Positions 2,853-48,910 of a stretch of 51,771 bases of DNA are shown here, piece after piece (position 1 is the first letter of the stretch; each line of letters opens with the position of its first letter). The DNA is from a virus: IMG/VR virus record IMGVR_UViG_3300025671_000094, positions 1-51,771 of that record; one strand, given 5' to 3'. The notes under the pieces are model-generated. The model saw only the letters and a list, made by a program, of their open reading frames with translations. It was not told the origin of the DNA and did not search any database. A program made the position numbers and the translations under genes.

Positions 2853-3040
2853 GCGAGACTGCTTTATATCATCAAATAGGTTTACTACAACAAGAACTTG
2901 CTCATGCAAAAGAAATCATTGAAAGTCTTACTACGGAACGTAATAAGTTTCGTAGTCAGGCTATGATGAGGGCAAATAAAATAGAGACATTATCAAATGA
3001 GATCAATAGTATTTATACGAAACAAGAGTATATCCCCTAG
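2849..3040 (+). CDS. Small coiled-coil hypothetical protein
   Basis: This 63-residue protein is predicted to be almost entirely helical, with heptad-like spacing of Leu, Ile and Met, consistent with a short coiled coil. It begins with an ATGA overlap on the primase-helicase stop, which implies translational coupling. No enzymatic motif is visible and I do not recognise the family. It may be an oligomeric accessory factor; that is a guess from composition only. Confidence 0.6.
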   Translation: MSETALYHQIGLLQQELAHAKEIIESLTTERNKFRSQAMMRANKIETLSNEINSIYTKQEYIP

Positions 3041-3164
3041 TCAAGACATTATTAAGCTATTAAATAGTCTTAGATCAAGGGGTACTGAGCCTATTGACTG
3101 GCACTATGATAACAACTATATAACATTTAGAGTAAAGGATGAAAATTATGGCGAAGCAAGCTAG
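2997..3164 (+). CDS. Small hypothetical protein (55 residues)
   Basis: This short frame opens at the ATG at 2997 inside the end of the preceding coiled-coil gene (44-nt overlap) and ends at the TAG at 3162-3164. The product is about 55 residues, with a basic N-terminal half and the segment IDWHYDNNYITFRV, which looks like a small beta unit. The ribosome-binding site is weak. Without this frame the space between 3041 and 3148 would be empty in an otherwise gapless operon, which supports it. No family is recognised. Confidence 0.45.
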   Translation: MRSIVFIRNKSISPSQDIIKLLNSLRSRGTEPIDWHYDNNYITFRVKDENYGEAS

Positions 3165-3246
3165 TCTTCTTAAACCACGCAAGCAGCGAACCTTCACAGG
3201 AAAGAAATATGCAGGACGTAAAAAGTATCGAGGACAAGGTCGATAA
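3148..3246 (+). CDS. Very basic 32-residue peptide
   Basis: This tiny gene encodes a 32-residue protein in which about 40 percent of residues are Lys or Arg, including the tail YAGRKKYRGQGR. An AAAGGA ribosome-binding site lies about 9 nt before the ATG. It overlaps the preceding small frame by 17 nt and ends before the preferred start of the dCMP deaminase gene. Such a composition suggests nucleic-acid binding, but no family is recognised. Confidence 0.5.
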   Translation: MAKQASLLKPRKQRTFTGKKYAGRKKYRGQGR

Positions 3247-3265
3247 CTACAAAGGTTTTATTACC

Positions 3266-3700
3266 ATGACAATAAAGGAAGAACGATATGATACACTATA
3301 TATGGACATCGCTAAGCGAGTTGCTCAAATGTCTTACGACAGCGACACGCAAGTTGGTGCAGTCATCGTTAAAGATGGAAACATTATTTCAATGGGCTGG
3401 AACGGTACTCCAAGCGGCTTTGATAATAACTGTAAACACCCTGAAACGGGTATCACTTTATCTACTGTTATTCATGCTGAAGCTAATGCAATCTGTAAGC
3501 TCGCTCGTACTAGTGGTTCTGGATTGGGTGCCACACTGTACACTACGCTCTCACCTTGTATCGAGTGTACTAAGCTTATCCTCCAATCTGGTATCAGCGA
3601 AGTTGTCGTTGAGAAAGCGTATGAAAAAGATCTAGAAGGATTTAAAATTCTCAATGAGAAAGGTATGTTAAGGGTATGCAAATCCATTATCAAAGAATAG
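3266..3700 (+). CDS. dCMP deaminase
   Basis: This zinc-dependent deoxycytidylate deaminase converts dCMP to dUMP and so feeds thymidylate synthesis for phage DNA. The zinc site is visible: HAE at about residues 70-72 (His ligand and catalytic Glu) and PCIEC with Cys 98 and Cys 101. The N-terminal substrate region includes DTQVGAVIV and GWNGTPSGF, typical of the dCMP deaminase branch rather than tRNA or riboflavin deaminases. A longer frame opens at 3209. The ATG at 3266 gives the usual family length (about 144 residues) and avoids overlap with the basic peptide gene, so it is preferred. Together with the ribonucleotide reductase at 26409-28157 it forms a precursor-supply pair, although the two genes lie in different transcription units. 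Confidence 0.9.
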   Translation: MTIKEERYDTLYMDIAKRVAQMSYDSDTQVGAVIVKDGNIISMGWNGTPSGFDNNCKHPETGITLSTVIHAEANAICKLARTSGSGLGATLYTTLSPCIECTKLILQSGISEVVVEKAYEKDLEGFKILNEKGMLRVCKSIIKE

Positions 3701-3945
3701 AGACTTTACCCGATTATGTTGCTTGGGTCCAATGTAATCCTGAAGATCGCAGTCAAGTAGAGGAGATGTTTCCTAAGGATAAATACGAACTACTGATTGC
3801 AATACAACCTAACTATGACCCTATAACTTGTTCACAACAAGTACTTTACAATCCACCCGCTCCAACTTGGGGCTTAGATGTATGGAAGAAAGAGGACGAT
3901 GGAAGATATACGGAACTATCTACTAGAGAGAATCCGCAGCGATAA
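3676..3945 (+). CDS. Hypothetical protein (89 residues)
   Basis: This 89-residue protein is of unknown family. It contains an acidic-aromatic N-terminal half and a proline-rich segment (LYNPPAPTWGLDVW). An AAGGG ribosome-binding site lies just before the ATG, inside the end of the deaminase gene (25-nt overlap). Its 3' end overlaps the RNA polymerase start by up to 68 nt. Its placement in the early metabolic operon is all that can be said about its role. Confidence 0.55.
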   Translation: MQIHYQRIETLPDYVAWVQCNPEDRSQVEEMFPKDKYELLIAIQPNYDPITCSQQVLYNPPAPTWGLDVWKKEDDGRYTELSTRENPQR

Positions 3946-6016
3946 CATAGGTGTTAAGCCTAGACGCAGCCTACAACTTATGCGTATGATCGACACCGAT
4001 GGTGTTGATATGCTCGACTTCCTAATCGAAGATATGATTATCTACGGACGTAAGTTTATCCAGCGTTGTTTTAAGCGTAGTAAAGTAGAAGGTGAAACCC
4101 CTATTACACAAGCTTCAATGGCTATCGGCAAGTATATTGTTGAAGGCTGGGACAGTAACAACGTTAACTTTAGAGACCATGTTCGTGTTGGTGATCTTAT
4201 CATTGAAGGCTTTGTTATGTGTGGCTACCTGACTATCTCAGTAGGTCACATGAAGAGCCGTAAGCCAGTTACAATCCATGCCACCGATAAATGGGGTGAG
4301 ATGGAAGTAGTAGCTGGCAAAACTACTTGTATGAGTGCAGATCCAATCCCACCTATCAGTAAACTATTTCAGGATAATGGTAGGGCTGTAATTAAAACTT
4401 GGGATAAGTCTAAAGAACACCTGTTTATGAAGTATATTAATGCACCTTTTGTAAAAGCAATTGATAGACTACAGTCTACAAGGTATCGGGTTAACACTGA
4501 AGTTAACCAAGCCATTAAAGAAAATATGTTTATGTTTGTTAAGAACGAAACATTTGATGGTGAAGATAAAGAAGAAAACACTAAGCTGTATCAGCGTCAG
4601 GCTTCTAAGAATCGAGAGATAAAAGAAGTAATGGCTATTGCAGACAAGTGGCTAGGTGAGTCATTTAGTTTCTACATTGATGCAGACTACCGTGGGCGGT
4701 TATACTATAGCGAACCCTTCTTTAACTTTCAGGGTGCTGACATTGCAAGAGGACAACTCTTGTTTGATGAAGGTAAACGCTTTGATGAGTCTGCTAGCTT
4801 CTGGTTAGCTGTTCATACTGCTTGTTGTTTTAATCAGTCATATAGTATTGATGAAATTCCTGAGTGGACTACAGGTAACTACCGTTCTGTACTCGAAGAA
4901 GAAAACTTAGATACTATTTCAGTAGACAAAATGACTCTAGAGGATCGCGCTCAGTGGACTCAAAAGAACATTGAAGTCATTATTGAGATGGGCGAAATGC
5001 GAATGATCGCAGAAGAGGCCGAGAAAGCTATCTCTTTCTTAGCATGTTGCATCGAGTGGTACCGCTACAGTACTACGGATGGGGACTACTATACTCGACT
5101 TCCAATCCCCATAGACGGTGCTAATAACGGCTGGCAACACCTAGGCGCTATGTCTAAAGATTCACTAACAGGGAAGCTAGTTGGGCTTGTTCCTACTGAA
5201 ATCCAGAACGACTTCTATGTACAAATAGCTAAGCGGCTATGCGACAGGATGCCTGAATGGTTTGAAGAAAGACAAATCCCAATGAAGCATATCCGTAAGG
5301 GCATTGCCAAACGTGCAGCTATGACTCGTGCTTATAGTTGTGGTCAAAAGAAAATGTCTGAGTCTATGTATAGCGATTGCTATCAATATGGCTTCACTAA
5401 TGACTACAACATTTCTACCTGGGATTGTGATGAGTTAAGTAGCCAGGTTATTAGGGCTATCCAGGAAGTTTGCCCCGGTCCTTTAGACACCATGAAGTAT
5501 CTGCAGCGGTTAGCTGATCAAGAGATCACTAACTGGTATAAGCAGTATGGTACTGATAGAGGCAAGGGTATCGAGTGGACTACCCCTTCAGGCTTTCCTG
5601 TGATATATGAATGTTATCGCACTAGACCTGTTAAGGTAGACTGTTATGGCTTCAATACGCCTGACGGAGAGATCCGCTTCAAGCACGTTATTAGAGAGCA
5701 TACAGACATCCCTGATCGTAGAGGCTTTATGTGCGGCATTAGCCCTAACTTTGTACACAGTATGGATGCTAGTCATATGGCTCTTGTTATAGCAGACTGG
5801 GAAGGCGACTTCGCTGCTGTGCATGACTCGTATAGCGCTCACGCTGGTAACGTAGAAGATCTTATGGTCAAGACAAGACAAAAGTTTGTTAGTATCTACG
5901 ACAAAGAAAACTTCTATGATACAATACCCTTTGGTAAGGGCTTCGAAGGAGTAGTACCTACTATCGGTAAACTATCTATTAAAGATGTTGCTGATTCTAC
6001 TTACTTCTTTTGTTAA
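3878..6016 (+). CDS. T7-like single-subunit DNA-directed RNA polymerase (short form)
   Basis: This polymerase would transcribe middle or late phage genes. Catalytic landmarks of the T7 family are intact: DYRGRLYY (Asp 270, Arg 274), motif A IDGANNGWQH (Asp 413, equal to T7 Asp537), motif B KRAAMTRAY (Lys 478 and Tyr 486, equal to T7 Lys631 and Tyr639, same 8-residue spacing), NFVHSMD, and motif C VHDSY (Asp 650, equal to T7 Asp812). The C-terminus is YFFC, compared with the aromatic FAFA foot of T7. At 712 residues it is about 170 shorter than T7 RNAP (883), mostly missing from the N-terminal domain, which in T7 binds promoter AT-rich DNA and initiates RNA. The first ATG (3878) has a poor ribosome-binding site. 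The ATG at 3899 follows an AGAGG at short spacing and is a credible alternative (705 residues). It is the last gene of the plus-strand module and is followed by a strong terminator. Confidence 0.93.
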   Translation: MYGRKRTMEDIRNYLLERIRSDNIGVKPRRSLQLMRMIDTDGVDMLDFLIEDMIIYGRKFIQRCFKRSKVEGETPITQASMAIGKYIVEGWDSNNVNFRDHVRVGDLIIEGFVMCGYLTISVGHMKSRKPVTIHATDKWGEMEVVAGKTTCMSADPIPPISKLFQDNGRAVIKTWDKSKEHLFMKYINAPFVKAIDRLQSTRYRVNTEVNQAIKENMFMFVKNETFDGEDKEENTKLYQRQASKNREIKEVMAIADKWLGESFSFYIDADYRGRLYYSEPFFNFQGADIARGQLLFDEGKRFDESASFWLAVHTACCFNQSYSIDEIPEWTTGNYRSVLEEENLDTISVDKMTLEDRAQWTQKNIEVIIEMGEMRMIAEEAEKAISFLACCIEWYRYSTTDGDYYTRLPIPIDGANNGWQHLGAMSKDSLTGKLVGLVPTEIQNDFYVQIAKRLCDRMPEWFEERQIPMKHIRKGIAKRAAMTRAYSCGQKKMSESMYSDCYQYGFTNDYNISTWDCDELSSQVIRAIQEVCPGPLDTMKYLQRLADQEITNWYKQYGTDRGKGIEWTTPSGFPVIYECYRTRPVKVDCYGFNTPDGEIRFKHVIREHTDIPDRRGFMCGISPNFVHSMDASHMALVIADWEGDFAAVHDSYSAHAGNVEDLMVKTRQKFVSIYDKENFYDTIPFGKGFEGVVPTIGKLSIKDVADSTYFFC

Positions 6017-6017
6017 A

Positions 6018-6068
6018 TAAAAAAACCCCACAAGGTTTCCATTACGGATTCCCTGTGGGGTATTTTTA
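6018..6068. terminator. Bidirectional intrinsic terminator between convergent modules
   Basis: An inverted repeat pairs CCCCACA (6026-6032) with TGTGGGG (6054-6060). It is flanked by a run of A on the left and a T-rich tract (TATTTTTATTTT) on the right, so it can act as an intrinsic terminator on both strands. It separates the plus-strand RNA polymerase gene from the minus-strand late module and would stop both from running into each other. Confidence 0.85.
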
Positions 6069-6070
6069 TT

Positions 6071-6322
6071 TTATACTAGTAGCTTTTGAATGTCTTGTTT
6101 TATTTTTGCACGTGCTCTTCCAGAATCAGCTTTAGCTTTTCCTTCTTTAACACCTGCATCGATCAAACCTTTAACATTTTTGTTGTACATTATACGCAAT
6201 AGTTCATCATTAATAGCCGGAGTATATGCCAAAGCAGGATCTAATCCATATTCTTTTACAAATTCCATATCATCAATTTTAAAGCCTTGTAATGCCATTC
6301 GATTATAATTTTTGTTAGCCAT
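6071..6322 (-). CDS. Small basic hypothetical protein, last gene of the late module
   Basis: This 83-residue, mostly helical, Lys/Arg/Asp-rich protein is not recognised. The second half (GRARAKIKQDIQKLL) is strongly basic. A GAGGAA ribosome-binding site precedes the ATG. It lies 10 nt downstream of the large RNA-polymerase-like ejection protein and directly before the terminator, so it is the distal gene of the late operon. It may be a virion-packaged or chaperone-like partner of its upstream neighbour; that is inference from position only. Confidence 0.6.
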   Translation of the reverse strand: MANKNYNRMALQGFKIDDMEFVKEYGLDPALAYTPAINDELLRIMYNKNVKGLIDAGVKEGKAKADSGRARAKIKQDIQKLLV

Positions 6323-6332
6323 AATTTCCTCA

Positions 6333-9300
6333 CTACATATTACTAATGTCTTTAGGTATTTGCGATAAGTATCTATCTTCCACTTCTTTATCTAGCTTTG
6401 CAATACCATTAAGTCTACTTGCAATAGCATAACTTGCAAGATATCCTTTTATAATTGCGGCTAATTGCGATTTAGTTACTATTGAATTTGAACCCTTCCA
6501 ACCATTAGCTTTTGCAATAGAATACCATTTAGCTTCAAATTCATTTAAGCCTCTGCCTGCAGCACGTTTAGCATCGAGTGTCGCTAATTGATCATGCAAA
6601 GCTTTATACTCATTTGATTGATTTAAGATATAGGACGTAGGTGCTTCTGGGCTTAGCAAGTTTTTTACATGTGAGCGAAGTCCGTCTTGTAATGCTTCAT
6701 ATACACCTTGAAATGCATTATGTCCCATTCCATTTGGATTAATTGCAATCTTTTTAAAGTTTCTATTATAGGCACCTCGATAATCTCTAATGCCTCTTAC
6801 ATCCGAAACAATAGCGTCATGAATAAAGTAACCCCACTTAGGTTCTTTTTTATTTTCATTTACTTCAAGAATAGATCTTGCCATAATTGCCGCATCAATT
6901 GCTTGAATTACAAGAACAGGTAATTGATATCTAACTTGATAGCCGTAGGGATCTGGGTTTCTCTTTACGTTTTTAAGTGTTTCAATATCAAATTGTTTAG
7001 AAGTTCTAGCTGGGCGCAAACTGCCTGATGATCTTGTCTTTTTAAGCTCAATAGGATAGCCTTCGGGAAAGTCAGGTAAAGGTACATTGATCATCTCTCC
7101 GGTACCTACTCTTTCTTTTCCACCGATAAACACTACATTACCTAATGGTCCATAGAATCTTGGCGTTTCACCACCAAGCAATGCCCACCCAATACCTACG
7201 TCTTGTAATACTTTTTGATGATCAATATTATCAAGCGTAGCAGTTAAAGCATTTCTAATTAAGCTATTAAAATCTTCTACAAGACCACGATAACCATTAG
7301 GGTCTTCAGCCGTTGCTGCATAACCCTCAATCCGACTATACTTAGCTAGCTCTAATACTTGTTGTCCAAAGCCTGTGCTATTTAAAATCTTCATAACTGT
7401 TTCATAGTTAAACTTTGCAGACTTACCATAAGAATGTTCCATGAGAGGAGTTCTAGATAACATTTTTTCTAATGTTGATTTATCGTTTTGTGAATCTAAT
7501 AATTTAATTACTTCATCACCCCAAAAGTCTTTTTTAAGTTCACGTTGACCTACAAAAGCTGCACCCGTAATTGCTTCAGCTTTAAAGTTAGCATTAAACT
7601 TGGCTCGAATATCTCCTTCTGGGATAACATTCTCTTCATCATTAAAGATAATGCCTACCTTTTTACTTAAATCAATATCTCTACGTTGAGCTGCCTGGAT
7701 AGCCATACCCGATTGTCGTCCATCGGCTTTTGCGCCAACAGTTATTTCAAACCTAGTACTAGCGGTTTCCTCAATTGGCTTTCTAATTAAACCTAGTTGA
7801 GCTGCAATCTGTTGTTCAGCTTGTTGAATAGCGTCTGGATCTCCAGATAACTTAGCATCCTCTAACATCTGAGTTAACCTTTCTGATTCTGGGCTTTCAT
7901 CTGCTTGCGGGATATAATACTTTGATTCTGAGATTTCAGCACCAGGATACTGTCTACGAATATCGCTTGCACCAGTTCGTTTATTGTTTAACTTTGCAGT
8001 ATGGTAATTAGCAAAATCAATATAAGCCCTGACTTGATCGCCCCAGCTTTCGGGATCATCAAATGCTTTCATATCATTGTCAAACTTAATCAACTTAGGA
8101 TTTGATTGTGACATTGCTTTCCAGCGATATCCATTACGAAGCCACCGAGTATATGGTGAGTCATTCTTAGGCTCCTGAGTTACTGCAATTTGCATAACCT
8201 TAGTTATCTCGCGCATTGTCATATTCTTAGGTGCTAAACGTTTACCAGTATAGTATAACACATCGTCTGTAGTTAACAATGCTTCACCTAATGAATACAA
8301 AAAGTCTTGCATTATTTCACTATCTAATGTTGTTTTACTTACATCGACAACTGTTTTCCTAGGACTACGAAGTATGTTTCGTACGATTTTATCATCTTGC
8401 GGATTAAGAACAATGTTTCGATACATATAACGCTCATTGCTTGATGCGTATGCAACAGGAAAATAAAATACTTTATCTTGAAACTCTTCTGCTGCTACAT
8501 AATTTCTAGCAAGCTTCCGGGCTTTCATTGCCATAATAGCATTAGCTTCTGCTTTAGCTGTTTCGTCATCAACTCTTAGCAATGCTTTGGTATAATGCTC
8601 CATCCATTTTGATTCATCTAATCCCAATGCTTTAGCTGCTGGTAGTGTAGAAAATAAACGATTATCTATTTGACCATTAAACGTAGCAAATCCACGAGTA
8701 GGATCACCTACCGATGGAGCCAACAAAGTGATTTTACCATTAGGTGCAATATTAAAATTAACAACTGAGTTAATCATAACCTTCATAATATTAGTAGTTG
8801 TTTTATCTAATGCATTACCCATACGCCCCATAATATCTAGGACTTTTCTCTGCACAGAATCATCATTTGCTCTGCGACTTTTAATAGCTGCATTACCTAC
8901 TTTTTTAAAGCCTTGAGCTAAGTAATGATGCAAACCAACACCTTCAATTTGAGGAGATAGTGAGGGCTTTCTAACATTGCCAGGGTTTAGGTCTACTAAT
9001 ACTTCTCTGGCTGAGTTATAAAAAGTAAGACCGGATTGGGACATCCGATAAGTTTTTCTATTATCAATAGTAATCGGCTCGATAAAACCCATATCTTGAA
9101 TAGCGGACCAAAGAATAGTGTCTGCAAATGCACGTACACGAGGACTGAGTTCTACGCCACCGAACCCCGCCATTGCCCCCGAAGGTAATTGCTGTGGATT
9201 AGGACTTAGTTTATTAACTAAAGAGTTAGCTAGCTGACCACGCTGATATTCTGGATTTATTTCTGTTTTAACTGAAAGTGGAACTGCACCTTCTTCATCA

Positions 9301-10130
9301 ATCTCAAATCCTAATCCTTCAAAGAAGTCTTCAGCTGTTTCAATTTCAGAGCTACTATCTGGATCCTGTTCATTTAAAGCAAGCTTGTCCTTAATATCTT
9401 GCTCACCTTTAAATACTTCTAACAAAGTAACAGCTAGCGCATTGCCTCCAGTATTTGTAAACTGCCTACTCTCAGGGTCTATTACCCCAGCTTTAATCAT
9501 TTCTTGTTGAAACTCAATTGCAACAGGATCATTTGATTGAAGCGCGGGTAAACCCTGCCGATTGAGCGCAGCCTGCAAGCGAACCCCTGTATTGCTAATA
9601 TTATTAAATACAGATTTATTAGTTCCTTGTGCTGGGAATTGGCTTTGTAAAGCTTCGCCTGTTTCAAAAGAGTAGTCTAATGTAGGCGGCGTATACTGAT
9701 TACTAAACTCTTCATCTTGCGCAGCCACTACTTCTGCTGTACCTATGCTCGGCGGTATTAGCTGACCTTCTGGCGTACGCATTGGAGTTTGTTGTATTTC
9801 TTCTGCATAAGGAGTTAACGAGCTAGTTGCCCGCATTGCTTGTCCTACTTGCTCTCTTGTGCTTGGTGCAGCTAATGCAAGATCGCCTTCTGGTCCTACA
9901 TTATAACCGCCTACCATTCGTTCTTGCAAATCTTCGGTAGGTAAATTAATATTTAAATCTTCAGTAGGATCTACTCTTGGGCCTGATTCAAGCGCAAGTT
10001 GATCTAGCTGTGCATCTGTTAACTCTGCACCTGGAGTTGCTTGAGCGCGTTTCCTTGCTTCAAGTTCTACTTTTAGTTTATCGTCAATGCCCCCACGTTG
10101 TAGTGCAAGCGCGGCTCTTCCTTTTGCCAT
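6333..10130 (-). CDS. Putative virion (ejected) single-subunit RNA-polymerase-like protein
   Basis: This 1265-residue protein sits at the end of the ejection-protein cluster. Its C-terminal two thirds show, in order and at plausible spacing, degenerate motifs of T7/N4-type RNA polymerases. A VAYASSNERYMYRN segment followed by NPQDDKIVR (Arg about 567) resembles the D..GR region. Motif A-like KADGRQSGMA follows (Asp 803). Motif B-like SRTPLMEHSYG has Arg 893 and Tyr 901, the same 8-residue gap as T7 Lys631-Tyr639 but with Lys replaced by Arg. The last part has IQAIDAAIM and then motif C-like YFIHDAI (Asp 1105). The A-to-B spacing (90) is close to T7 (94). The first 300 residues are Gln/Pro-rich and acidic and not recognised. 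In N4, a giant T7-related RNA polymerase is packaged and ejected to transcribe early genes; the gene position here fits that. If it is not active, it may be a structural relic. Activity is inferred, not shown. Confidence 0.62.
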   Translation of the reverse strand: MAKGRAALALQRGGIDDKLKVELEARKRAQATPGAELTDAQLDQLALESGPRVDPTEDLNINLPTEDLQERMVGGYNVGPEGDLALAAPSTREQVGQAMRATSSLTPYAEEIQQTPMRTPEGQLIPPSIGTAEVVAAQDEEFSNQYTPPTLDYSFETGEALQSQFPAQGTNKSVFNNISNTGVRLQAALNRQGLPALQSNDPVAIEFQQEMIKAGVIDPESRQFTNTGGNALAVTLLEVFKGEQDIKDKLALNEQDPDSSSEIETAEDFFEGLGFEIDEEGAVPLSVKTEINPEYQRGQLANSLVNKLSPNPQQLPSGAMAGFGGVELSPRVRAFADTILWSAIQDMGFIEPITIDNRKTYRMSQSGLTFYNSAREVLVDLNPGNVRKPSLSPQIEGVGLHHYLAQGFKKVGNAAIKSRRANDDSVQRKVLDIMGRMGNALDKTTTNIMKVMINSVVNFNIAPNGKITLLAPSVGDPTRGFATFNGQIDNRLFSTLPAAKALGLDESKWMEHYTKALLRVDDETAKAEANAIMAMKARKLARNYVAAEEFQDKVFYFPVAYASSNERYMYRNIVLNPQDDKIVRNILRSPRKTVVDVSKTTLDSEIMQDFLYSLGEALLTTDDVLYYTGKRLAPKNMTMREITKVMQIAVTQEPKNDSPYTRWLRNGYRWKAMSQSNPKLIKFDNDMKAFDDPESWGDQVRAYIDFANYHTAKLNNKRTGASDIRRQYPGAEISESKYYIPQADESPESERLTQMLEDAKLSGDPDAIQQAEQQIAAQLGLIRKPIEETASTRFEITVGAKADGRQSGMAIQAAQRRDIDLSKKVGIIFNDEENVIPEGDIRAKFNANFKAEAITGAAFVGQRELKKDFWGDEVIKLLDSQNDKSTLEKMLSRTPLMEHSYGKSAKFNYETVMKILNSTGFGQQVLELAKYSRIEGYAATAEDPNGYRGLVEDFNSLIRNALTATLDNIDHQKVLQDVGIGWALLGGETPRFYGPLGNVVFIGGKERVGTGEMINVPLPDFPEGYPIELKKTRSSGSLRPARTSKQFDIETLKNVKRNPDPYGYQVRYQLPVLVIQAIDAAIMARSILEVNENKKEPKWGYFIHDAIVSDVRGIRDYRGAYNRNFKKIAINPNGMGHNAFQGVYEALQDGLRSHVKNLLSPEAPTSYILNQSNEYKALHDQLATLDAKRAAGRGLNEFEAKWYSIAKANGWKGSNSIVTKSQLAAIIKGYLASYAIASRLNGIAKLDKEVEDRYLSQIPKDISNM

Positions 10131-10146
10131 TTTAATCTCCTAGTTA

Positions 10147-10170
10147 GGGAGATGCCCGTAAGCACCTCCC
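10147..10170 (-). promoter_or_regulatory. Intergenic stem-loop before the RNA-polymerase-like gene
   Basis: A 9-bp inverted repeat (minus strand GGGAGGTGC and GCATCTCCC, one G-T wobble) with a 6-nt loop fills the 48-nt gap between the two largest ejection-protein genes. No T tract follows, so it is not a typical terminator. It could be a processing site or mRNA stabiliser that sets the level of the downstream gene. An AGGAG ribosome-binding site lies just beyond it. Confidence 0.5.
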
Positions 10171-10178
10171 GTAGTTAA

Positions 10179-13100
10179 TTAAGATAATAGATCCATTAAT
10201 TCTTTTAAATATGAATCTTTATAGTTTAATGATGCTGCTGGACTTCTCATATGGAGGATATCAGTAGCGGCATCTCGTACTCTATTGATTGAGCTAGTAA
10301 CAGGTACTGTGCTCAAAACACTTTTTGCTGCGCCTTCAGTATTACCTTCTAACAGCTGACCGGCACCTTTAACTACTTTCTGTATATTCCTAGATGAAGG
10401 TCCAGTGTCACCGCCTAAAGTAGATAGCAACCAATTACTCCTATCTGGATACAGCGGAGCTACTAAATCTATAGCACGTTCGTATTGGCCTAATACACCC
10501 GAAGAATATAATGCACGCTGAATATACCCTGGACCATCCAAATATGGGCTTGGCTTTCCAAACTTTATTTCATCCTTAATATACTGACTTGCACCGCCAA
10601 GAACCATCATCATAACGATTAACACAAAGGTGTCATACTTTACTTGTAATGTACCCTTTGCTAATTGATTACGATACAATTGAGGTATTACTACTGAAGT
10701 AAAAGTAGAAATAAAACCATTGAATTGAGTAAACAATTGGTAATGCGGATCTTGGAAAAACAAAGGTCTATTGCTTGATTGAGGATTTTGGATACGTTCA
10801 TTTACAAAATTATAAATTGCAGTATCCATTTGATCTTTAATAAAGTCATCTAGGTTTTGTGCATCTTGAAACAATTCTCTTTTGGAAGTATTTGCAATAT
10901 CACTATTAGCAACCGCAGCATTTAACGCTCGTTGTCTAAGTGGCATATCACCTACTTGTTCATAGTAAGGGTCTTCAGCCTCTCCTTCAATTGCAAATAA
11001 AGAGTCACGATATATTTCCTCTGACAAGGCATAGGCTTCGTAAAGACCTTCTACATCAATACCTAAGTTTGAAAGATATGTATACGCTCTTTGTTCTTCT
11101 GAATTAAATTCATCAAAGTCAAAACCTAATTCAACTTTGCCTGATTCTAAAGCAGCACGTTCAATTGCTTCAGTATCTCCAGGAAGTTCTGTGCTAAATG
11201 GATTTAATTCTTCACGTTGTATACCATAATCTTTTCTTGGTGCATTTAATAATGTTTGCATATGTGATCTAACAAAATCTATAGCAAAGGTAGCATTTAT
11301 TCTACGTTGAAATTGAGTAAAAGTAGTCAACCCAATTACACTAAAGAAAGCTTCATGGGCTCTTAAAAATGCAATATCTTTTTCGCCACTCGCTAGCCTA
11401 TCAATTGCTGAACTTTGTTGTGCAGTTAATCCTGTTCTCTCTAAGTAAACTTTAGAACGTTTAACTTCTTCTGCTAAAAATTTACTATATGCACCACCGA
11501 GTTGTTTAAATAAAGTATCAGTTGCTTGTTTAAATAAAGCATCATCATTTACTTTAAAGTATATCATAACAGTTTCAGGTAATGAAGCCGCTGCAGATAG
11601 TGTTAACCCTGCAAAGATAGACCAGTTAGTAAGTATGCTATTTAACTTTGCTAGCATAGGATTTTTAACTCTGTTAAAGTTACCATGCTCGCTATTAATC
11701 ATTGAAATAACATAATAAGCTAGTTTATCTATTTGAGTTTCAGTAAGACCATCGGGTAGTTCGGCTTGCTCTGCACGTAATTCATTAAATAACTGCGTTA
11801 ACTTACGTCCATTATGACCAAAGTATTGTGTTGAAGAAGAATATTTAGCTGCTTCGCGTTGAGAGCGATGCAATTGCTCAAATAAATTATCGCTAGCCCA
11901 TTGAGCAAAGCCATCAGGATCTTCAATACTAATACGCCGAGTGCGTTCATTAAAAGTCCAGGGTACCCAAGGCTGAGTGCCGCTAACTAATGAATACTCT
12001 TCTCCAAAAGTTGCTTCCCCTCGAAGAGTAATGCTTTCAAACAACTGTTCTAATTGAATTTCATCTGTGCCTAAACCGTTTTTCTTTGCCCAACGCATAA
12101 AACCTTTTTTATCTGATTTTACTTTTTTCCAATCAAAACCATCGAACTTATACCAATACCCAGGAATATAGTCTAGCGCTTTTGCTCCCGTTTCTTCAGT
12201 GTAAGCAGTATTAATCTCATTATGAATTGCTCGATAGGCATCATCAAGTTCTTTTGCAGCTTGATAATAAGTCAATGCTTGTGCTTCAGTATAATCTAAA
12301 TCACCTTTAAAGTCTGCCCATATTATTTTAGAGTCTTGTCCAGGCACAACAACTTCATTTCTTTTAGCTTCAAGATAAGCAGCAACAGCTTCCATGCCTC
12401 CTGCTTTTCCGAATGCTTTAAGTATTTTAGATACCTTAATAGTATTCCTAACATTTGTTCTTGCTTTAGGATTAAATAAAACATTTTTAATCATCTGTGA
12501 CTGATTAACCATTCTGCGCAAACGACCTTCAATTTTATCTTTAGCTGCGCGATGGTTGTCTCCACTAAAGAAACGACCAAATGTAGTCATACCTACTCTT
12601 GACATAATGTCTAAGCCAATTTTACTTTTAACAAGATCAACAGCTTCTATAGCCGCTTTTTCTGCTCCGCGTAATAAATTTAAAACGCCTACTGCAGCAG
12701 TGCCTGCATATTCTTTCAACTCTGTATTAGCAGTAAACCATTTTTTAACACCAACAAAAGCGCTTTTGTAACGATCATGCATTGTTTGAACCGTGTCTTC
12801 TGCAGTGTTTACAGTTTCTTGTTTAACAGCTTTATCTTGCCTAGCTACTTTACTTTGAGCAGCATCTAAAAATAATTGTGCTTCAACCGCACCATACTTT
12901 TCTTTAATTACTTCTGCTTGTAACTTAGCTCTTTCTAAAGTAGGATCTTGGATTGCTGAATCAATAGCATCGTTTACTAACTGCCGAGTTAAATCTTGAT
13001 CAATTGAATTTTTAAACTTATTAACTGTGTTATTAATATACGCTGCATCTTCTTCCTGCGGAGATACTAAACTTAAATTGCTAGCTGTTTGTCTTGCAGT

Positions 13101-14786
13101 AACTTTTGCCCGATCATCAGCTACCTTAATATTATCTTTAACGCTAGGGATAATCTCGCCTGCAGCCTCTCGCTTAACTCTTTCTGCTTCTACTGGTTCT
13201 AACTTATTAATATCCGCTTTATCAGTTTTATCTTTGCGAGCCATATAATTTTTTAATTGACTACGACCACTAGCTACTCCTGAAAAAGTACCGCCAATGG
13301 CTCCACCTGCAATACCTGCATTAATTAATCGATGTTTAATATCATCAGCACTATATACTTTATCCGAAAATCCAGCAGCAGTAGCCATCTGAATTGATTC
13401 TTGAAGTATTTCAGTAATTGATTCAACTGCTGCACCGCGAGCAGAAGCCTTTCCTACTTGAGCAAGTGAAATCCTAGCAAGCATTTCAGGATCTAAAGCA
13501 CCTGCTGCTTTCAATAAACGTGTTTGCTCAGATCTAACTGCATTAGTTAGTATCTTCTCAGCCTCTAGCTGTGTTAAGGGTTTTAGTCTCACCCCTTTTT
13601 TAGTTATACCAGCGGCTACCTGTTTAGCTCGCTGCTCAACTAATGCTTGAGCACCTTTTTGAATTCCTTCTTTAGACAACAAAGATGTTTTTGGTATAAG
13701 CTTACTTAAACCAAAACGTTCTACGACTGACATAGATACGCCGCCAGCTGTAGCTGCAGCCCACTGTGCTGCTCCTTTTTCGCCTTCCATTTCATTCCAG
13801 ATTTGTCCTGAAAAGATAAGCGAGTTAGGGAGCGCAGTAGCACCTAATGCTACCATGCCTGCACCTGCTGCACCAATGAATGGTGTTGCGACTAACATTG
13901 TAGGAGCAGCTAATGCTAGTCCTGCGATTGAAGTTGCAAAGTAAGGAGCTGCCATTGCCGTATTATTCATAACATATTGGAAGCCATCAAATACATTGTT
14001 TACTTCTCGATAGTCTAATAATACTTCCGGTGCTTCTCGCATATTTGCACGAGCACGAGCCACCCCTTGTTCCCCAAGGTTTTCTAACATTTCAATGCCA
14101 GTGACTTGGCCTGTGGCATCCATATAGCCGTACCAGCCTTCTTTAATTCCCTGCCAAGATTGCCCTAATGAACTACCTGCTTGACTAAAGAATCCAATTT
14201 GTTCGTTATCTAAATTACGATCATGGTCTCTGAATGCAACTGAAGAATGATAATCCGGAGAATAATTAGCTTCATTTAATGCGGTGGATTTAAATCGCAA
14301 ACCACCCTTATCAAACTCTTCTTTTACTTTATCTCCAAGCAACTCATAATCAGTTGCTTCGCCCGTAAGCTGACGTCTTGCCCTAGCTGCTTCCAGATTT
14401 GCTAAATCAGAGGCTGCAGTAAAAGCGTTAGGCTCTGCAATTCCAGCAGCAATAAGCGTTTCATCAAGGTCTTCGCCTTCATTGTTAGTGCGCCGAATAA
14501 TAGTACGCCCATACTTATCCACACCTTTTTCTTCGATGTTATAAAATTTACCCTTACGAATAACTTCTTCAACAGCTTCGCTTTGCGCAGCAGCGCCAAG
14601 CTGAGGAGGAGCAACATACTCCTCCCCGTACTTATCTTTCTTTACTGTTGCAATTTCACGCGTATTAGATCCTTCACGGCGATAACGATTACCCGTAGCA
14701 TCAACTTCAGTATCTCCATCGATAATGCGATTAAAGCCGCCTTTACCATCAGGTATTAGCCGTTCTTTCTTTTCGTCATCAGCCAT
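10179..14786 (-). CDS. Large ejection (internal virion) protein with N-terminal staphylococcal-nuclease-like domain
   Basis: This 1535-residue protein is probably ejected into the cell with the DNA, by analogy with T7 gp15/gp16. Residues about 20-125 match the SNase/TNase fold pattern: IIDGDT (Asp 25, equal to SNase Asp21), YRREGSNTRE (Arg 36 and Glu 44, equal to Arg35 and Glu43; Asn 41 replaces Asp40), DKYGR (Arg 94, equal to Arg87) and a closing DETLIAAGIAEPN. Three of the catalytic residues are kept, but one metal ligand is changed. Hydrophobic segments at roughly residues 265-310 and near 1100 and 1390 could enter the membrane. The rest is long helical sequence rich in Ala, Lys and Glu. 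It lies between the transglycosylase protein and the RNA-polymerase-like protein. Ejection-protein status rests on size, membrane segments and position; nuclease activity is unproven. Confidence 0.68.
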   Translation of the reverse strand: MADDEKKERLIPDGKGGFNRIIDGDTEVDATGNRYRREGSNTREIATVKKDKYGEEYVAPPQLGAAAQSEAVEEVIRKGKFYNIEEKGVDKYGRTIIRRTNNEGEDLDETLIAAGIAEPNAFTAASDLANLEAARARRQLTGEATDYELLGDKVKEEFDKGGLRFKSTALNEANYSPDYHSSVAFRDHDRNLDNEQIGFFSQAGSSLGQSWQGIKEGWYGYMDATGQVTGIEMLENLGEQGVARARANMREAPEVLLDYREVNNVFDGFQYVMNNTAMAAPYFATSIAGLALAAPTMLVATPFIGAAGAGMVALGATALPNSLIFSGQIWNEMEGEKGAAQWAAATAGGVSMSVVERFGLSKLIPKTSLLSKEGIQKGAQALVEQRAKQVAAGITKKGVRLKPLTQLEAEKILTNAVRSEQTRLLKAAGALDPEMLARISLAQVGKASARGAAVESITEILQESIQMATAAGFSDKVYSADDIKHRLINAGIAGGAIGGTFSGVASGRSQLKNYMARKDKTDKADINKLEPVEAERVKREAAGEIIPSVKDNIKVADDRAKVTARQTASNLSLVSPQEEDAAYINNTVNKFKNSIDQDLTRQLVNDAIDSAIQDPTLERAKLQAEVIKEKYGAVEAQLFLDAAQSKVARQDKAVKQETVNTAEDTVQTMHDRYKSAFVGVKKWFTANTELKEYAGTAAVGVLNLLRGAEKAAIEAVDLVKSKIGLDIMSRVGMTTFGRFFSGDNHRAAKDKIEGRLRRMVNQSQMIKNVLFNPKARTNVRNTIKVSKILKAFGKAGGMEAVAAYLEAKRNEVVVPGQDSKIIWADFKGDLDYTEAQALTYYQAAKELDDAYRAIHNEINTAYTEETGAKALDYIPGYWYKFDGFDWKKVKSDKKGFMRWAKKNGLGTDEIQLEQLFESITLRGEATFGEEYSLVSGTQPWVPWTFNERTRRISIEDPDGFAQWASDNLFEQLHRSQREAAKYSSSTQYFGHNGRKLTQLFNELRAEQAELPDGLTETQIDKLAYYVISMINSEHGNFNRVKNPMLAKLNSILTNWSIFAGLTLSAAASLPETVMIYFKVNDDALFKQATDTLFKQLGGAYSKFLAEEVKRSKVYLERTGLTAQQSSAIDRLASGEKDIAFLRAHEAFFSVIGLTTFTQFQRRINATFAIDFVRSHMQTLLNAPRKDYGIQREELNPFSTELPGDTEAIERAALESGKVELGFDFDEFNSEEQRAYTYLSNLGIDVEGLYEAYALSEEIYRDSLFAIEGEAEDPYYEQVGDMPLRQRALNAAVANSDIANTSKRELFQDAQNLDDFIKDQMDTAIYNFVNERIQNPQSSNRPLFFQDPHYQLFTQFNGFISTFTSVVIPQLYRNQLAKGTLQVKYDTFVLIVMMMVLGGASQYIKDEIKFGKPSPYLDGPGYIQRALYSSGVLGQYERAIDLVAPLYPDRSNWLLSTLGGDTGPSSRNIQKVVKGAGQLLEGNTEGAAKSVLSTVPVTSSINRVRDAATDILHMRSPAASLNYKDSYLKELMDLLS

Positions 14787-14797
14787 TGATCACTCCT

Positions 14798-17395
14798 TTA
14801 ATTGTCATTAAACAATTGTTCTGCTGTAGGATTATTTGCATAGATTTGAGACATCCACCAAGTAAATGCTGTATGTCCATCAGTACGCTCTTTATCTTCA
14901 AAGCTACCCATATTATAATCGGGGTCTTTTCTTTTACGCTCAAGTATTTTATTCCACTTGTTATTCATTGCTTTAAATTCTACTTTAGCATCGGTCTTAC
15001 TTTGATTTACTTCTTGTTGAACTGTATTCATAAGATCTGCAAGCTTGTAGGGATCTGCACCTTCTACATATTTCATATTAAGGCCTGGATTATCTACTGC
15101 AATTCTTTCTTGACGATAAAAATATAATAATGAATTAACAGGGTCTCTACCACCAAAACTAGTATCATCTTTTTTAAACTGAAGATTAGCATCAGCGTAT
15201 TTATCAAGCGCTCTTCGCATTGCTGTTTTAATTCTTCCTTGATTTGAAGTATCAGCAGCTTCTTTGGCAATATCTTCCATTACCAAGTCTCTAGCAGCGC
15301 CACCTAAAGAAGTTAAAGGTACTAATTGATTTTCTTCTTTTACACCTTTATTTACTCGCTCAAAGGCTTGCTTTGCTGCAGAATCGAATGATTTAGCAAG
15401 TTCAATTGGTGAATTTTCAGGTATTACCTTTTTCGCACCAATAGATGCAGCATTAACCCTTTCAAGTTTACCATTAACTTTAACAGTAAGCATAGGTACG
15501 CCATCTACATCTACTGCAGCTTGCATACCTGTCATTCCTGGAACTATATAATAATCTCCGGGGACTACTTTCTTTACTGTACCGCCTTTATCTTCAAGCA
15601 CACCAATGTCACCTGTCTCTAGATATAGCTTAAGAGACTTTGCAGTATAGTTTTTAAGATTATCTTTATTAGTAATAAACTCTTTTCTTGCAGCTAAATC
15701 AGAATCAATCCGCTTAACATAATTTTTCATTGAGTAGTTAAGTGAGTCACCATGATTATAACCCATAATGCGAGAGCCTGCATAAGTAATAAACATTCTA
15801 GCAATTTCAGGTCCACTAAACATACTGGAAAAGGTATCTTTAAACCAGCCACCAACTTCATTAGTTACTTCATCAAACTTAGATTTAGCTTCAGGATCCT
15901 TAGGCAAAGAATTAATAAGCTGATTAATCCCTGCTTCACCCTCAAGAGTAATCTCATTAACGGGGCCAAGCTGTTGCATAACCATTCCAGCAGCATTTTT
16001 CTTTTGCGTTGTTTCTGTAGTATCTTCTGGTTTAGGCGGTACTTTATCTGCTTCAGGTACTGGAACTAACTCCTTTTCTAATTCCGACTTTCTAGCTTTT
16101 AAAGCATCAGCAAGTACAGTATTACCTGCTGCTTTTGCCGCCAAAATCTCTGCATCTATATTAGCTATATTAGATTCGATAGGTGCATTACTAGTAGTTG
16201 CAGATTGAATTGCTTGTTCTTTCTTATATTTTTGATTAGCTTCATTTTGTTTAACTGCTTGATTGTATTCAGCCATACGCCGATCATACATTTCACGATC
16301 ACCATTTTTAGCAAACGTTTCTGCAATTTGTTTAGGTATATCTTTAGAGATGCGATTAGGGTTTACTGCCTGTGGACGCCCTTTATTATCTAGAATAATA
16401 TCCTCAGAATAAGGTGATGTTACTGGTGGAATATTATCTATAACAGGGACACCCATACCCGCAGCTTGTGCAGCTGCATCAGGTAAATACTGACCAGAGC
16501 CTTGTCCACCTGTAGGTACAGGCGGCAATGTAGCTGCATTAGCAGAAAACATTCCTGATTCAATATCTGATTGAGTTAAATCTGAAGGAGTTACACCTCT
16601 ATCAATTAACTCTTGAGGGAAAACTTCTGCATTATTAACCTTACCAGCATAAGCTTGACCACGAGGTCCAAGTGCTTCTGTTCCCTCTTTAGCCTTACGA
16701 ACATTACCTACACCCGAATGATAAGCAGTAATTACTTCATCTTCAGTAAAGTCTGGATTAGCTGCTGCGATACCCATAAGATATTGTCTAGCAAACTCAC
16801 GAGACTTAACCGGATCACGAATATCTTCTGCTGCTAGCGGTGTTACGCCATAGCCAGGCTGCGCTGCTGTAGCAGGCATGATTTGATATTGACCCATAGC
16901 ACCTGCTTCAGAGGTAGCATTAGGATCACCACCGGATTCTATTCTGCGTATGCGATCTAATAAACTATTAGTAACAAAATCACCAGCAGCCGAGTACATA
17001 GGTCCACCATCTCTATCACCAAGCCGTTGACCAAGACTATTTAACATCCCATCATAACGAGGTACTTCCATTCCACCAGCAGCATAAGTAGGAATAGGTC
17101 CACCCTGTGCCTGTTGAATAGCACGACCTTGCTCATTCATTTCATCAATCTTTTCTTGATTACCAGGAAGACGAGATGCTTCAGCGTTAACAACATTTTC
17201 TCCAGGGGTTAACCATGCAGGGACTGTATCAGTTCCTTTAGGATTCCCCGGATGATTACTGGTATCTGCACCGTTATAACCATTAGGCATATCGGGAATC
17301 ATCATCATCATAGGTACGTTTTGGTCTTCAAACAATTCGAGAGAAAACATATTACCATAACGGTCTTTTTGAGTAATGCTTTTTATGTTATGCAT
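14798..17395 (-). CDS. Ejection protein with lytic transglycosylase (SLT) domain
   Basis: This 865-residue virion protein would open peptidoglycan during DNA entry. Residues about 144-250 form a lysozyme-like SLT domain: LLDRIRRIESGGDP with catalytic Glu at about 153, then GAMGQYQIMPATA, and ITAYHSGVGNVRKA, the classic AYN-G-like signature in variant form. The N-terminus contains DTVPAWLTPGENVVN, a motif common in phage tail and tape-measure proteins, and two GG-x-Y-A-A-G style segments (QGGPIPTYAAGG, RDGGPMYSAAG) also found in the next two genes upstream. The remaining 600 residues are helical, charged and unrecognised. It overlaps the previous gene by one base and precedes the nuclease-like ejection protein by 11 nt. 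The SLT call is firm; cell-wall opening at entry is inferred from gene order and the T7 gp16 precedent. Confidence 0.85.
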   Translation of the reverse strand: MHNIKSITQKDRYGNMFSLELFEDQNVPMMMMIPDMPNGYNGADTSNHPGNPKGTDTVPAWLTPGENVVNAEASRLPGNQEKIDEMNEQGRAIQQAQGGPIPTYAAGGMEVPRYDGMLNSLGQRLGDRDGGPMYSAAGDFVTNSLLDRIRRIESGGDPNATSEAGAMGQYQIMPATAAQPGYGVTPLAAEDIRDPVKSREFARQYLMGIAAANPDFTEDEVITAYHSGVGNVRKAKEGTEALGPRGQAYAGKVNNAEVFPQELIDRGVTPSDLTQSDIESGMFSANAATLPPVPTGGQGSGQYLPDAAAQAAGMGVPVIDNIPPVTSPYSEDIILDNKGRPQAVNPNRISKDIPKQIAETFAKNGDREMYDRRMAEYNQAVKQNEANQKYKKEQAIQSATTSNAPIESNIANIDAEILAAKAAGNTVLADALKARKSELEKELVPVPEADKVPPKPEDTTETTQKKNAAGMVMQQLGPVNEITLEGEAGINQLINSLPKDPEAKSKFDEVTNEVGGWFKDTFSSMFSGPEIARMFITYAGSRIMGYNHGDSLNYSMKNYVKRIDSDLAARKEFITNKDNLKNYTAKSLKLYLETGDIGVLEDKGGTVKKVVPGDYYIVPGMTGMQAAVDVDGVPMLTVKVNGKLERVNAASIGAKKVIPENSPIELAKSFDSAAKQAFERVNKGVKEENQLVPLTSLGGAARDLVMEDIAKEAADTSNQGRIKTAMRRALDKYADANLQFKKDDTSFGGRDPVNSLLYFYRQERIAVDNPGLNMKYVEGADPYKLADLMNTVQQEVNQSKTDAKVEFKAMNNKWNKILERKRKDPDYNMGSFEDKERTDGHTAFTWWMSQIYANNPTAEQLFNDN

Positions 17396-18459
17396 TATTT
17401 CCCTCCTACTGAATTAACGTAACCACCTTGTGAGGCATAAATTCGACCTCCCATTGAACGAAAACTATCGTTACCACCATCTATACCACCACCTCCGGAA
17501 TTTGCACCGTCAGTTCCACTTCCACTATCTGAATCACCATCGCCATAACCACCACCGCCAGAGCCGCCGCCCATGCCATCATCGTTATTTCCGTAACCTC
17601 CATCTCCGCTAACAGAATTGTTGTTATCATTAGAAATCTCTTCAATTGCTGCTTCAAGGTCTGCTTTAAAGTTAGTTGCTGGCGTAGACTTAGTTACTTC
17701 TGGGCTAACTGTAGTTGGCATAGGATTAGATACAACTGTTATATTAGCAACTGGCGGTGAATAGTCGCCTGGGATAGCGCCCATAGTAGGATTAGTGTCA
17801 TCAATCCCATAGTCACCAACTGATGCATACTCATCTGCTAATGGATTAATACCTGTTTGAACTGCTACATGTCCGGGCAAAGCATTTTGTGCTGGACTAT
17901 AATCAGAAAAATCATAAATGGCGTCATACAACTGAGCATCCATAAAAGGATTAACTTTATCTATTACTTGTTGATTTGACATGCCTGCCATTAAGCTATC
18001 GGCTATTGCAGTTGCTGCAGTACCAAGCACTGGATTTGAAGCGGCGCTAAGCGCTTGGCCTAGCGCTGTTTTTGCTGCTACTTTGGCAGGTTGATTAGCT
18101 GCTGCTGTTGTTTTATTTGAAATATAGTTAAGGCCTTCGTTTATAAACCCACCTATTTCCTTATCGTCCATTAGCATACCTTGGTTAGCATACATAGGTG
18201 GGATTGCGCCGCCATGTGAAAATCCACCGCCTTCACCGTCTCCTTCAGAGTTATCATCGCTAGGGTGGTATCGCTGGACAGGCTCTTCTACTGGTGCTAC
18301 ATACTCTGGCACTTCATAATCAGAAAAATCAACATAGTTAGTAGTTAAAGGACCAACTGGTATTGGCGCATAATTAAATAAACCTTCAAAGTTACTATTA
18401 AGATAACCGAAAGGATTAGGTATTGCCTCTGTATTAGGCTTTCTTATAAACCCAGCCAT
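17395..18459 (-). CDS. Glycine-rich putative virion protein
   Basis: This 354-residue protein is of unknown family. The second half is low-complexity, with an acidic Gly/Asp/Ser/Asn-rich tract at roughly residues 280-335. It carries the recurring segments HGGAIPPMYANQG (about residue 100) and GGRIYASQGG near the end, which resemble segments in the two neighbouring ejection-type proteins. No signal peptide or membrane helix is evident. Translation is coupled: its stop shares a base with the start of the transglycosylase gene and it starts 1 nt after the previous stop. It is probably an internal virion or ejection component. Confidence 0.6.
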   Translation of the reverse strand: MAGFIRKPNTEAIPNPFGYLNSNFEGLFNYAPIPVGPLTTNYVDFSDYEVPEYVAPVEEPVQRYHPSDDNSEGDGEGGGFSHGGAIPPMYANQGMLMDDKEIGGFINEGLNYISNKTTAAANQPAKVAAKTALGQALSAASNPVLGTAATAIADSLMAGMSNQQVIDKVNPFMDAQLYDAIYDFSDYSPAQNALPGHVAVQTGINPLADEYASVGDYGIDDTNPTMGAIPGDYSPPVANITVVSNPMPTTVSPEVTKSTPATNFKADLEAAIEEISNDNNNSVSGDGGYGNNDDGMGGGSGGGGYGDGDSDSGSGTDGANSGGGGIDGGNDSFRSMGGRIYASQGGYVNSVGGK

Positions 18460-18460
18460 A

Positions 18461-19273
18461 CTACTCTCCTTTAGTTAGCGGTCCACCACCATAAGATAAT
18501 TTGTAAACATCACCACCCGCTGATTTATATTCTACTTTAGATAATGGTCCAGCCATACCACCGCCGTATAGGTTTAATTCATTTATCATTTTACCCATTT
18601 TGCGCCTGTCGTTTTGAGGATATTCAAAATCGCTTTCGCTATATCCTTCTCTCTCTTGATTTCCGCGTACATAGCTATCAGATTTTTTATTTAATGCTTT
18701 ACTAAGTCCTCGGAATTTTAAACGATCTATATTTTTTTGTACAGCTTCATTTACATTTTTAAGATTACCATCAGCAGCATACAATGGTCCAACATGACCA
18801 CCATCACTAAAGAAACCAAACATTTTAGCTAGTGCAAGTCCACCTACAATAGGCGCTAACGGACTAGCCATAGCTGCTGTTGCCATACTGCCTAGCCCAG
18901 TCCCCCCTGTTGCTAACCCTGCTTCTACCATTGCCGGTGCACCACCTTTCAATGCTATTGACATAGGTGCGCCAGCTTGTTTTGCAACTAACGCTGCTTT
19001 ATCTGCACCAGAACCAATAACTGCTGAAGCCATTTGTGGTGACATACCAGTTCCTGCTTGTGCAATTGGAGTTACTTGTGGTGTAAAAAAATCTTTTATT
19101 TTTGGAATTGTTGTATCTACTAAATTATTAGTAGACTTAGTTAATGCATAATCACCTATTTTTTCTGTAACAGAAGGATCTTTTTTAGGCATAACTGGAC
19201 GAGGAGTTTCCATAGGGGTCATTCGTGATGTTTTTAACTTTTCACGATCATCAGGAAATCTTAGCATAACCAT
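18461..19273 (-). CDS. Putative internal virion protein (270 residues)
   Basis: This protein has a central Ala/Gly-rich, weakly hydrophobic region (about residues 85-160, including MVEAGLATGGTGLGSMATAA). That region could insert in a membrane, as with T7 gp14-type ejection proteins. It ends in several Gly-rich YAADG or YGGG segments (DGGHVGPLYAADG, YGGGMAGPL, YGGGPLTKG). The family is not recognised. It is preceded by a coupled gene and followed within 1 nt by the next. Ejection-protein status is inferred from composition and position. Confidence 0.55.
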   Translation of the reverse strand: MVMLRFPDDREKLKTSRMTPMETPRPVMPKKDPSVTEKIGDYALTKSTNNLVDTTIPKIKDFFTPQVTPIAQAGTGMSPQMASAVIGSGADKAALVAKQAGAPMSIALKGGAPAMVEAGLATGGTGLGSMATAAMASPLAPIVGGLALAKMFGFFSDGGHVGPLYAADGNLKNVNEAVQKNIDRLKFRGLSKALNKKSDSYVRGNQEREGYSESDFEYPQNDRRKMGKMINELNLYGGGMAGPLSKVEYKSAGGDVYKLSYGGGPLTKGE

Positions 19274-19275
19274 AA

Positions 19276-42543: not shown

Positions 42544-42865
42544 TGTTGTCCTCCATCATATGCGGAATATTCTTCCCATACATTTCAAAGCCTATCATTT
42601 TCTCTTTAACACTTCCTAATGCCATAGCAGAACTGTAGAGAAACTCACGGGACTTTGTTTCATGCGGCTCCGTCTTGAGCCATTCAATAAAGAGGTCAAT
42701 TAGAACCTCACCATATACTTCATCAAAGAATTCATCCCGTTCCTTGGCGGCGAAGTGACCCTTAACATGAGCCCTTCGCGCCAATTCTTCAGGATGAACT
42801 TTATGATTACCGTATGACTTATTATTACCTAGCTTCGTCTCAGCTGTTTTGCGGTATTTGTCCAT
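42524..42865 (-). CDS. Hypothetical protein between portal and scaffold (113 residues)
   Basis: This protein is helical and charged, with HPEELARRAHVKGHFAAKERD and LIDLFIEWLKTEPHE segments. The stop of portal (42840) overlaps its start by 26 nt, so it is co-translated. Proteins of similar size and place occur in many podoviruses without known role. It carries no motif I recognise. Confidence 0.58.
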   Translation of the reverse strand: MDKYRKTAETKLGNNKSYGNHKVHPEELARRAHVKGHFAAKERDEFFDEVYGEVLIDLFIEWLKTEPHETKSREFLYSSAMALGSVKEKMIGFEMYGKNIPHMMEDNNGEANN

Positions 42866-48309: not shown

Positions 48310-48406
48310 TTAGTTGTCCTCTAAATATCTCCTATAAGGGGGTGTTTAGGTCCAAAGTGGTACTAATGGTTTTTCTCTATGTGTTAAAAAGATGTAGAGC
48401 GGTGTT

Positions 48407-48459: not shown

Positions 48460-48460
48460 T

Positions 48461-48476: not shown

Positions 48477-48496
48477 GCTGTGTCAAGGAGGTTGCT

Positions 48497-48904: not shown

Positions 48905-48910
48905 AACAAG

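Follow-up and report, generated by a model that had tools for sequence, protein, structure and literature searches.

Does a phage that already encodes a T7-like RNA polymerase also carry a second RNA polymerase into the cell inside its virion? The question is raised by a 51,771-nt stretch of viral DNA, the whole of which is called the window here (IMG/VR record IMGVR_UViG_3300025671_000094), where a single uninterrupted open reading frame (ORF) on the minus strand, 6333–10130, encodes a protein of 1265 residues. A sequence-only reading had seen in this protein, by eye, the catalytic motifs of single-subunit RNA polymerases and had proposed a candidate virion RNA polymerase (vRNAP) outside the N4 group. 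We consider it very probable that the gene does encode a virion RNA polymerase: a single-subunit enzyme, nearest to the catalytic domain of the N4 vRNAP, packed with the ejection proteins and transcribing early. Single-subunit virion polymerases have been tied to the Schitoviridae and the derived family Poorviridae (PMC11654794), and a virion-packed polymerase of this type is treated as a hallmark of N4-like phages (PMC7650795); for the podophage StenR_269, a vRNAP was conjectured from size, helix content and absence of cysteine only (PMC10747016). No description of the family presented here was found in the open-access literature searched, a search that was not exhaustive.

Taken alone, the 1265-residue protein has no match in Pfam, PHROGs, the PDB sequence set or, by tblastn, 50,697 phage records, and a direct IMG/VR search with it returned one relative only (L001). 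Searching IMG/VR instead with the upstream 1535-residue neighbour gave 22 loci, and a polymerase homologue directly follows this ejection-protein neighbour wherever the locus is long enough. Two alignment-based scans brought the family to 46 long, non-redundant IMG/VR members, counting that of the window; the complete ones measure roughly 1120–1390 residues. Family members match PHROG 2206 “virion RNA polymerase” (best E 8.7e-9), PHROG 414 “RNA polymerase” (9.4e-6) and Pfam RNA_pol (1e-3), and in the motif C region of the relatives the best E to PHROG 2206 is 6.6e-8 among the matches listed; a 17-sequence profile run with hmmsearch against PDB sequences gave noise only. The gene is under purifying selection, with dN/dS of 0.12–0.16 compared with 0.09 for the T7-like polymerase.

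What ties the protein specifically to N4 is its sequence. In profile–profile comparison (hhalign) with nine Schitoviridae vRNAPs, the family aligns over 495 columns with Prob 98.5%, E 3.8e-15 in local mode and with Prob 99.5, E 3.1e-22 in global mode, its catalytic residues falling on those of N4, whereas the T7-like polymerases of the same phages give E 1e-3 and two control families E 0.2–0.5. The fold was predicted with AlphaFold2 for residues 66–1265 from 47 aligned sequences (pLDDT 80.2, pTM 0.82). The best 50 PDB matches in Foldseek are all single-subunit RNA polymerases (T7, N4 mini-vRNAP, mitochondrial), with E 1.9e-13 for T7 and 4.2e-13 for N4 mini-vRNAP. VIA-align covers most of the model and returns Z scores of 21.3 for the yeast mitochondrial polymerase, 19.8 for T7 and 15.6 for N4 mini-vRNAP (574 residues, 4.4 Å), reaching Z 21 across 680–750 residues for single-subunit polymerases; no other family stands among the 50 matches listed, where the absence of others is not evidence. 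The predicted structure has the right-hand polymerase fold, including the polymerase N-terminal domain, and by this model the protein is no nearer to N4 than to T7. With T7-like and mitochondrial polymerases it shares the whole-length fold (Z about 14–21) and motifs T/DxxGR, A, B and C; it differs from them in the much weaker sequence relation, the lack of cysteine, the late-operon position and the presence of a separate T7-like polymerase in the same phage. By fold and motifs the protein belongs to the single-subunit RNA polymerases, with DNA-directed RNA synthesis as its predicted activity.

The segments and residue numbers picked out by eye are correct: NERYMYRN...NPQDDKIVR (R567), KADGRQSG (D803), SRTPLMEHSYG (R893/Y901) and FIHDAI (D1105). 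R567 (TxxGR), K581, R584, D803 (motif A), Y901 (motif B) and D1105 (motif C) are kept in 46/46 long members, although identity within the family falls to about 14%, and positions 889 and 893 are Lys or Arg in all 46. In the local, greedy and global modes of hhalign alike, R567, K581, R584, D803, K889, R893 and Y901 align on N4 R424, K437, R440, D559, R666, K670 and Y678, and in the greedy and global modes D1105 aligns on N4 D951. K437 and R440 of the N4 enzyme bind the initiating nucleotide, and its motif is TxxGR in place of DxxGR (PMC4496689). The lack of a clear D..GR was thus rightly observed in the sequence-only reading and wrongly taken for a departure from the canon: the N4 vRNAP itself has TxxGR, and the family form is S/TxxGR. 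The Lys-to-Arg change that it reported in motif B is present but paired with an Arg-to-Lys change four residues earlier, so that the order of the two is inverted (K889/R893, compared with R666/K670 in N4). A distant clade carries textbook motifs: “GYSGRIAPQQTLFNP”, “YIDGKTNG”, “RELNKQTTMTFGYG” (canonical motif B) and “YDAF”.

The surroundings of the gene connect it with the ejection apparatus. No large gene follows it in the late operon, which on the minus strand runs from transglycosylase to large ejection protein to virion-type polymerase, the order given by the sequence-only reading; the SNase-like segment from which that reading had named the ejection protein is a weak one (Pfam SNase E 0.005, under the cut-off). 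Among 72 distinct loci the large ejection protein lies immediately upstream in 55 of the 56 with room for it, as it does in the window, and the convergent T7-like polymerase lies downstream in 72/72. Six long relatives (57–61 kb) share the layout TerL-portal-capsid ... transglycosylase-ejection protein-polymerase. A polymerase made together with the structural proteins late in infection would be of use chiefly in the next cell.

Composition points the same way. There is no cysteine in 41/46 family members, including the window's (0 in 1265 residues), in 39/41 upstream ejection proteins or in 9/9 vRNAP catalytic regions, against 7–17 in each T7-like polymerase of these phages. Six consecutive large late genes of the window, from 6333 to 19875, are without any cysteine; elsewhere in the window, other virion proteins contain few and enzymes 1.5–2.4 per 100 residues.

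Finally, the polymerase passes between phages together with the entry proteins, as a single exchanged block. Compared with the genome G001 (locus L012), the window has a T7-like polymerase (98%), terminase, portal and capsid proteins that are 96–98% identical, whereas virion-type polymerase, ejection protein and transglycosylase are only about 30–40% identical; the DNA similarity, 94% over the aligned module, stops at 6091, past the T7-like polymerase gene and an inverted repeat. The T7-like polymerases of the window and locus L004 are 100% identical and their virion-type polymerases 28%, and across phages with 98–100% identical T7-like polymerases the ejection cassettes are 27–41% identical. 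Over 45 loci, the identity of the virion-type polymerase tracks that of the ejection protein (r 0.955; partial r 0.92 given the T7-like polymerase), as against a partial r of -0.41 with the T7-like polymerase given the ejection protein; these correlations are descriptive, since the loci are related. Synteny, cysteine depletion and block exchange are three independent, if indirect, lines that agree on a virion protein.

Table 1. Features of the window that bear on the virion-type polymerase, with their coordinates.
Feature	Position	Strand	Basis or remark
Compact virion-RNA-polymerase-like protein, 1265 aa, cysteine-free	6333–10130	-	Homology, motifs, fold
TxxGR region, residues 562–586 (R567, K581, R584)	8373–8447	-	Invariant in family
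Motif A, residues 799–813 (D803 = N4 D559)	7692–7736	-	Family alignment and hhalign mapping
Motif B, residues 886–904 (K889/R893/Y901 = N4 R666/K670/Y678)	7419–7475	-	Family alignment and hhalign mapping
Motif C, residues 1101–1111 (D1105 = N4 D951)	6798–6830	-	Family alignment and hhalign mapping
Large ejection protein, 1535 aa, no cysteine	10179–14786	-	PHROG 6958 “virion structural protein” E 2e-18
Lytic transglycosylase ejection protein, 865 aa, no cysteine	14798–17395	-	Pfam SLT E 3e-15
Three further consecutive late genes (354, 270, 199 aa), cysteine-free	17395–19875	-	Composition
T7-like RNA polymerase, 712 aa, 16 cysteines	3878–6016	+	Pfam RNA_pol E 1e-55
Small 83-aa ORF between the two polymerase genes, final late-operon gene	6071–6322	-	Conserved in L001
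Large inverted repeat separating the convergent polymerase genes	6004–6082		Edge of the exchanged ejection block here
SU10-type adaptor, major capsid and portal proteins	37894–38763, 40043–41212, 42840–45014	-	
TAGNNCCACTTTGGNNNTA, 19-bp motif, three exact copies, beside early genes and upstream of TerL	48347–48365, 50228–50246, 51661–51679	-, +, +	
Perfect hairpin TAGTCCT-GCT-AGGACTA then TCCGAGAGGACACT, early-region intergenic gap	49216–49232	+	Like the 51661 element and its downstream sequence

How close, then, is this protein to the N4 enzyme? The N4 vRNAP is gp50, 3500 residues long, with the catalytic domain known as mini-vRNAP at residues 998–2103. The catalytic core aligns along its length, the catalytic and initiating-nucleotide residues are the same, and cysteines are absent from both; in N4, too, the vRNAP gene is the last of the late operon, adjoins the ejection proteins and is convergent with the early and middle genes. 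Unlike gp50, the window's protein is about a third the size and is without the N-terminal (~1000 residues) and C-terminal (~1400 residues) domains. The N4-specific Pfam domains vRNAP_plug, vRNAP_dom, vRNAP_dom_2 and N4_RNAP_helical are found in 0/17 family members at E ≤1, and the N4 vRNAP, run as a control, matches all four. The protein is best described as a homologue of the N4 vRNAP catalytic domain that probably works like it, and not as an N4 vRNAP in the strict sense.

The phages differ as well. The ejection partners are the transglycosylase and a protein of 1300–1800 residues here, gp51/gp52 in N4; the partner polymerase is a single T7-like chain, a normal one as the sequence-only reading had said, where N4 has the gp15/gp16 heterodimer. 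Schitoviridae have three polymerase genes, among them a two-chain middle polymerase (RNAP1, RNAP2), a set that the window phage does not have. For this family 17 conserved core proteins are listed (PMC7650795), and tblastn with 16 of these (gp25 left out) and gp51 gave no match at E < 1e-3 in the incomplete window, in keeping with the earlier placement outside the N4 group. By gene content, the phage is not a Schitovirus, yet its portal belongs to PF23899/PHROG 1216, a family common to the N4 portal, hinting at shared head ancestry. Schitoviridae genomes are 59–80 kb with terminal repeats; the window is 51.8 kb and lacks about 7.4 kb relative to G001, and nine long relatives are 55–61 kb. In the 58.75-kb genome G005, the same sequence lies near both ends, at 137 and 58608 (L142, L144), suggesting terminal redundancy, though its IMG/VR class is linear without end repeats.

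A more distant relative is found in a cultured phage. The HMMER family profile missed gp33 of Roseobacter phage CRP-7 (MK613349), a “hypothetical protein”, and hhalign recovered it (Prob 97.4, E 9e-12). Like the family, gp33 closes the run of ejection genes and faces a convergent T7-like polymerase, is free of cysteine and has an HDA motif C; its identity is only about 15%. A model of the CRP-7 type has low confidence (pLDDT 52), and its structural matches are not independent evidence because its alignment held rows of the virion-type polymerase family. The RCA phages, CRP-7 among them (host Rhodobacteraceae FZCC0042, an RCA roseobacter), have been described as non-N4-like podoviruses (PMC6918029). 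One family member (L125) lies on a phage contig binned with an uncultured Dehalococcoidia metagenome-assembled genome; the binning is probably an artefact and gives a weak hint of a host, the only one besides CRP-7. Virion polymerases of phiKZ-like phages are of the multi-subunit type, unrelated to the single-subunit fold. The likeness to these phages and to Thermus phage P23-45, with its vRNAP fused to the tail tape, would be one of strategy, a polymerase carried in the virion to start infection; the P23-45 enzyme is homologous to cellular multi-subunit polymerases and of unrelated fold (PMC10770324).

Among the neighbouring features, the three further cysteine-free late genes of Table 1 are possible entry or tail parts, and the late structural operon also holds the large subunit of a ribonucleotide reductase (26409–28157, minus strand). 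The 19-bp motif of Table 1 recurs in G001, in exact and near copies, and, slightly altered, in G010. It was rejected as a hairpin promoter of the virion polymerase, being identical in G001 despite a virion polymerase only ~30% identical; because the T7-like polymerase of G001 is 98% identical, it is the likelier reader, and the copies are probably its promoters. The first ~1.2 kb of the early region (48445–49691) is not matched by any DNA of G001, close as that genome otherwise is, and may hold either fast-changing takeover genes or a co-exchanged promoter region.

As a virion polymerase, the protein would be synthesised late in infection and packaged in the head alongside the transglycosylase and the large ejection protein, to be ejected before or together with the DNA. 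In the new cell it would make the first phage transcripts, that of the T7-like polymerase gene included, after which the T7-like polymerase, presumably the middle/late polymerase, would take over; transcription by the ejected enzyme may also help to draw the DNA in. Several points weigh against this proposal. The flanking domains of the N4 vRNAP, which reportedly function in injecting the genome and in encapsidation (unpublished data, cited in PMC4496689), are absent here, so a different packaging signal would be needed. A scan of the incomplete window's early region for repeated N4-like hairpin promoters (stem at least 5, 3-nt loop) found none, whereas in the N4 left end it picked up two GCTCCGC hairpins; about 7.4 kb of G001 (3040–10465) falls outside the two ends of the window, and with some 7 kb of early region lacking, promoters may have been missed. 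Furthermore, polymerases ~30% identical have been swapped into near-identical genomes without the early region being clearly swapped along: co-exchange of early region and ejection cassette was not clear in the genome pairs compared, which is hard to reconcile with strict promoter recognition.

It is this last difficulty that an enzyme acting foremost as an entry motor would ease, one of low promoter specificity that pulls the genome in and for which early mRNA is secondary. The block exchange with entry proteins into nearly unchanged genomes would fit such a motor, as would the fact that no promoter family tracking the polymerase was found, and a role in genome injection has been proposed for the N4 vRNAP (PMC4496689). 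Entry driven by transcription would still require start sites, however, and the gap in the early region may again hide promoters; we hold this emphasis, which overlaps with the virion polymerase proposed above, to be unlikely though well worth keeping in mind. The presence of all catalytic residues would also suit a second intracellular, non-virion polymerase that is produced late and transcribes late genes without leaving that cell, but the phage already encodes a T7-like polymerase, and the gene sits at the end of the late operon beside the ejection proteins, lacks cysteine unlike the T7-like polymerase, and is exchanged with the ejection genes and not with the transcription genes, all of which makes such a role improbable. 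Slightly more improbable still is a polymerase fold reused for a non-catalytic virion role, such as a structural or DNA-binding ejection protein: the rearranged motif B (K889/R893 for R/K) and the very divergent sequence might suggest it, but both catalytic Asp, the TxxGR Arg, the motif-B Tyr and K581/R584 are invariant in 46/46 members, at a dN/dS of 0.12. That the motifs matched by chance in an unrelated protein was conceivable for a single protein without family or PDB match; family profile, fold and residue conservation refute it, and its probability is next to nil.

If the protein is a virion polymerase, it would be a naturally occurring “mini-vRNAP” that does without the domains to which injection and encapsidation are attributed. 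It would belong to a broad, so far unannotated group of phages outside the N4 family, with head proteins like those of SU10. Alongside N4 it would offer a second, independent case in which to study the packing of a folded enzyme and its passage through a phage tail, and to learn how much of the giant N4 protein is really needed; because CRP-7 is cultured, the proposal can be tested. We suggest tentatively, as a possibility short of a probable one, that alternative entry cassettes of transglycosylase, ejection protein and polymerase, ~30–45% identical, are exchanged as blocks with a sharp edge just past the T7-like polymerase gene; their exchange into near-identical genomes would mean that the entry apparatus, and not the remaining transcription programme, determines which polymerase starts infection. 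If true, the exchanged polymerase must work on genomes with which it has not co-evolved, and would either read a very conserved or a small co-exchanged promoter or have relaxed specificity as a DNA-entry motor. The block exchange with the ejection proteins would thus amount to a natural experiment on promoter specificity.

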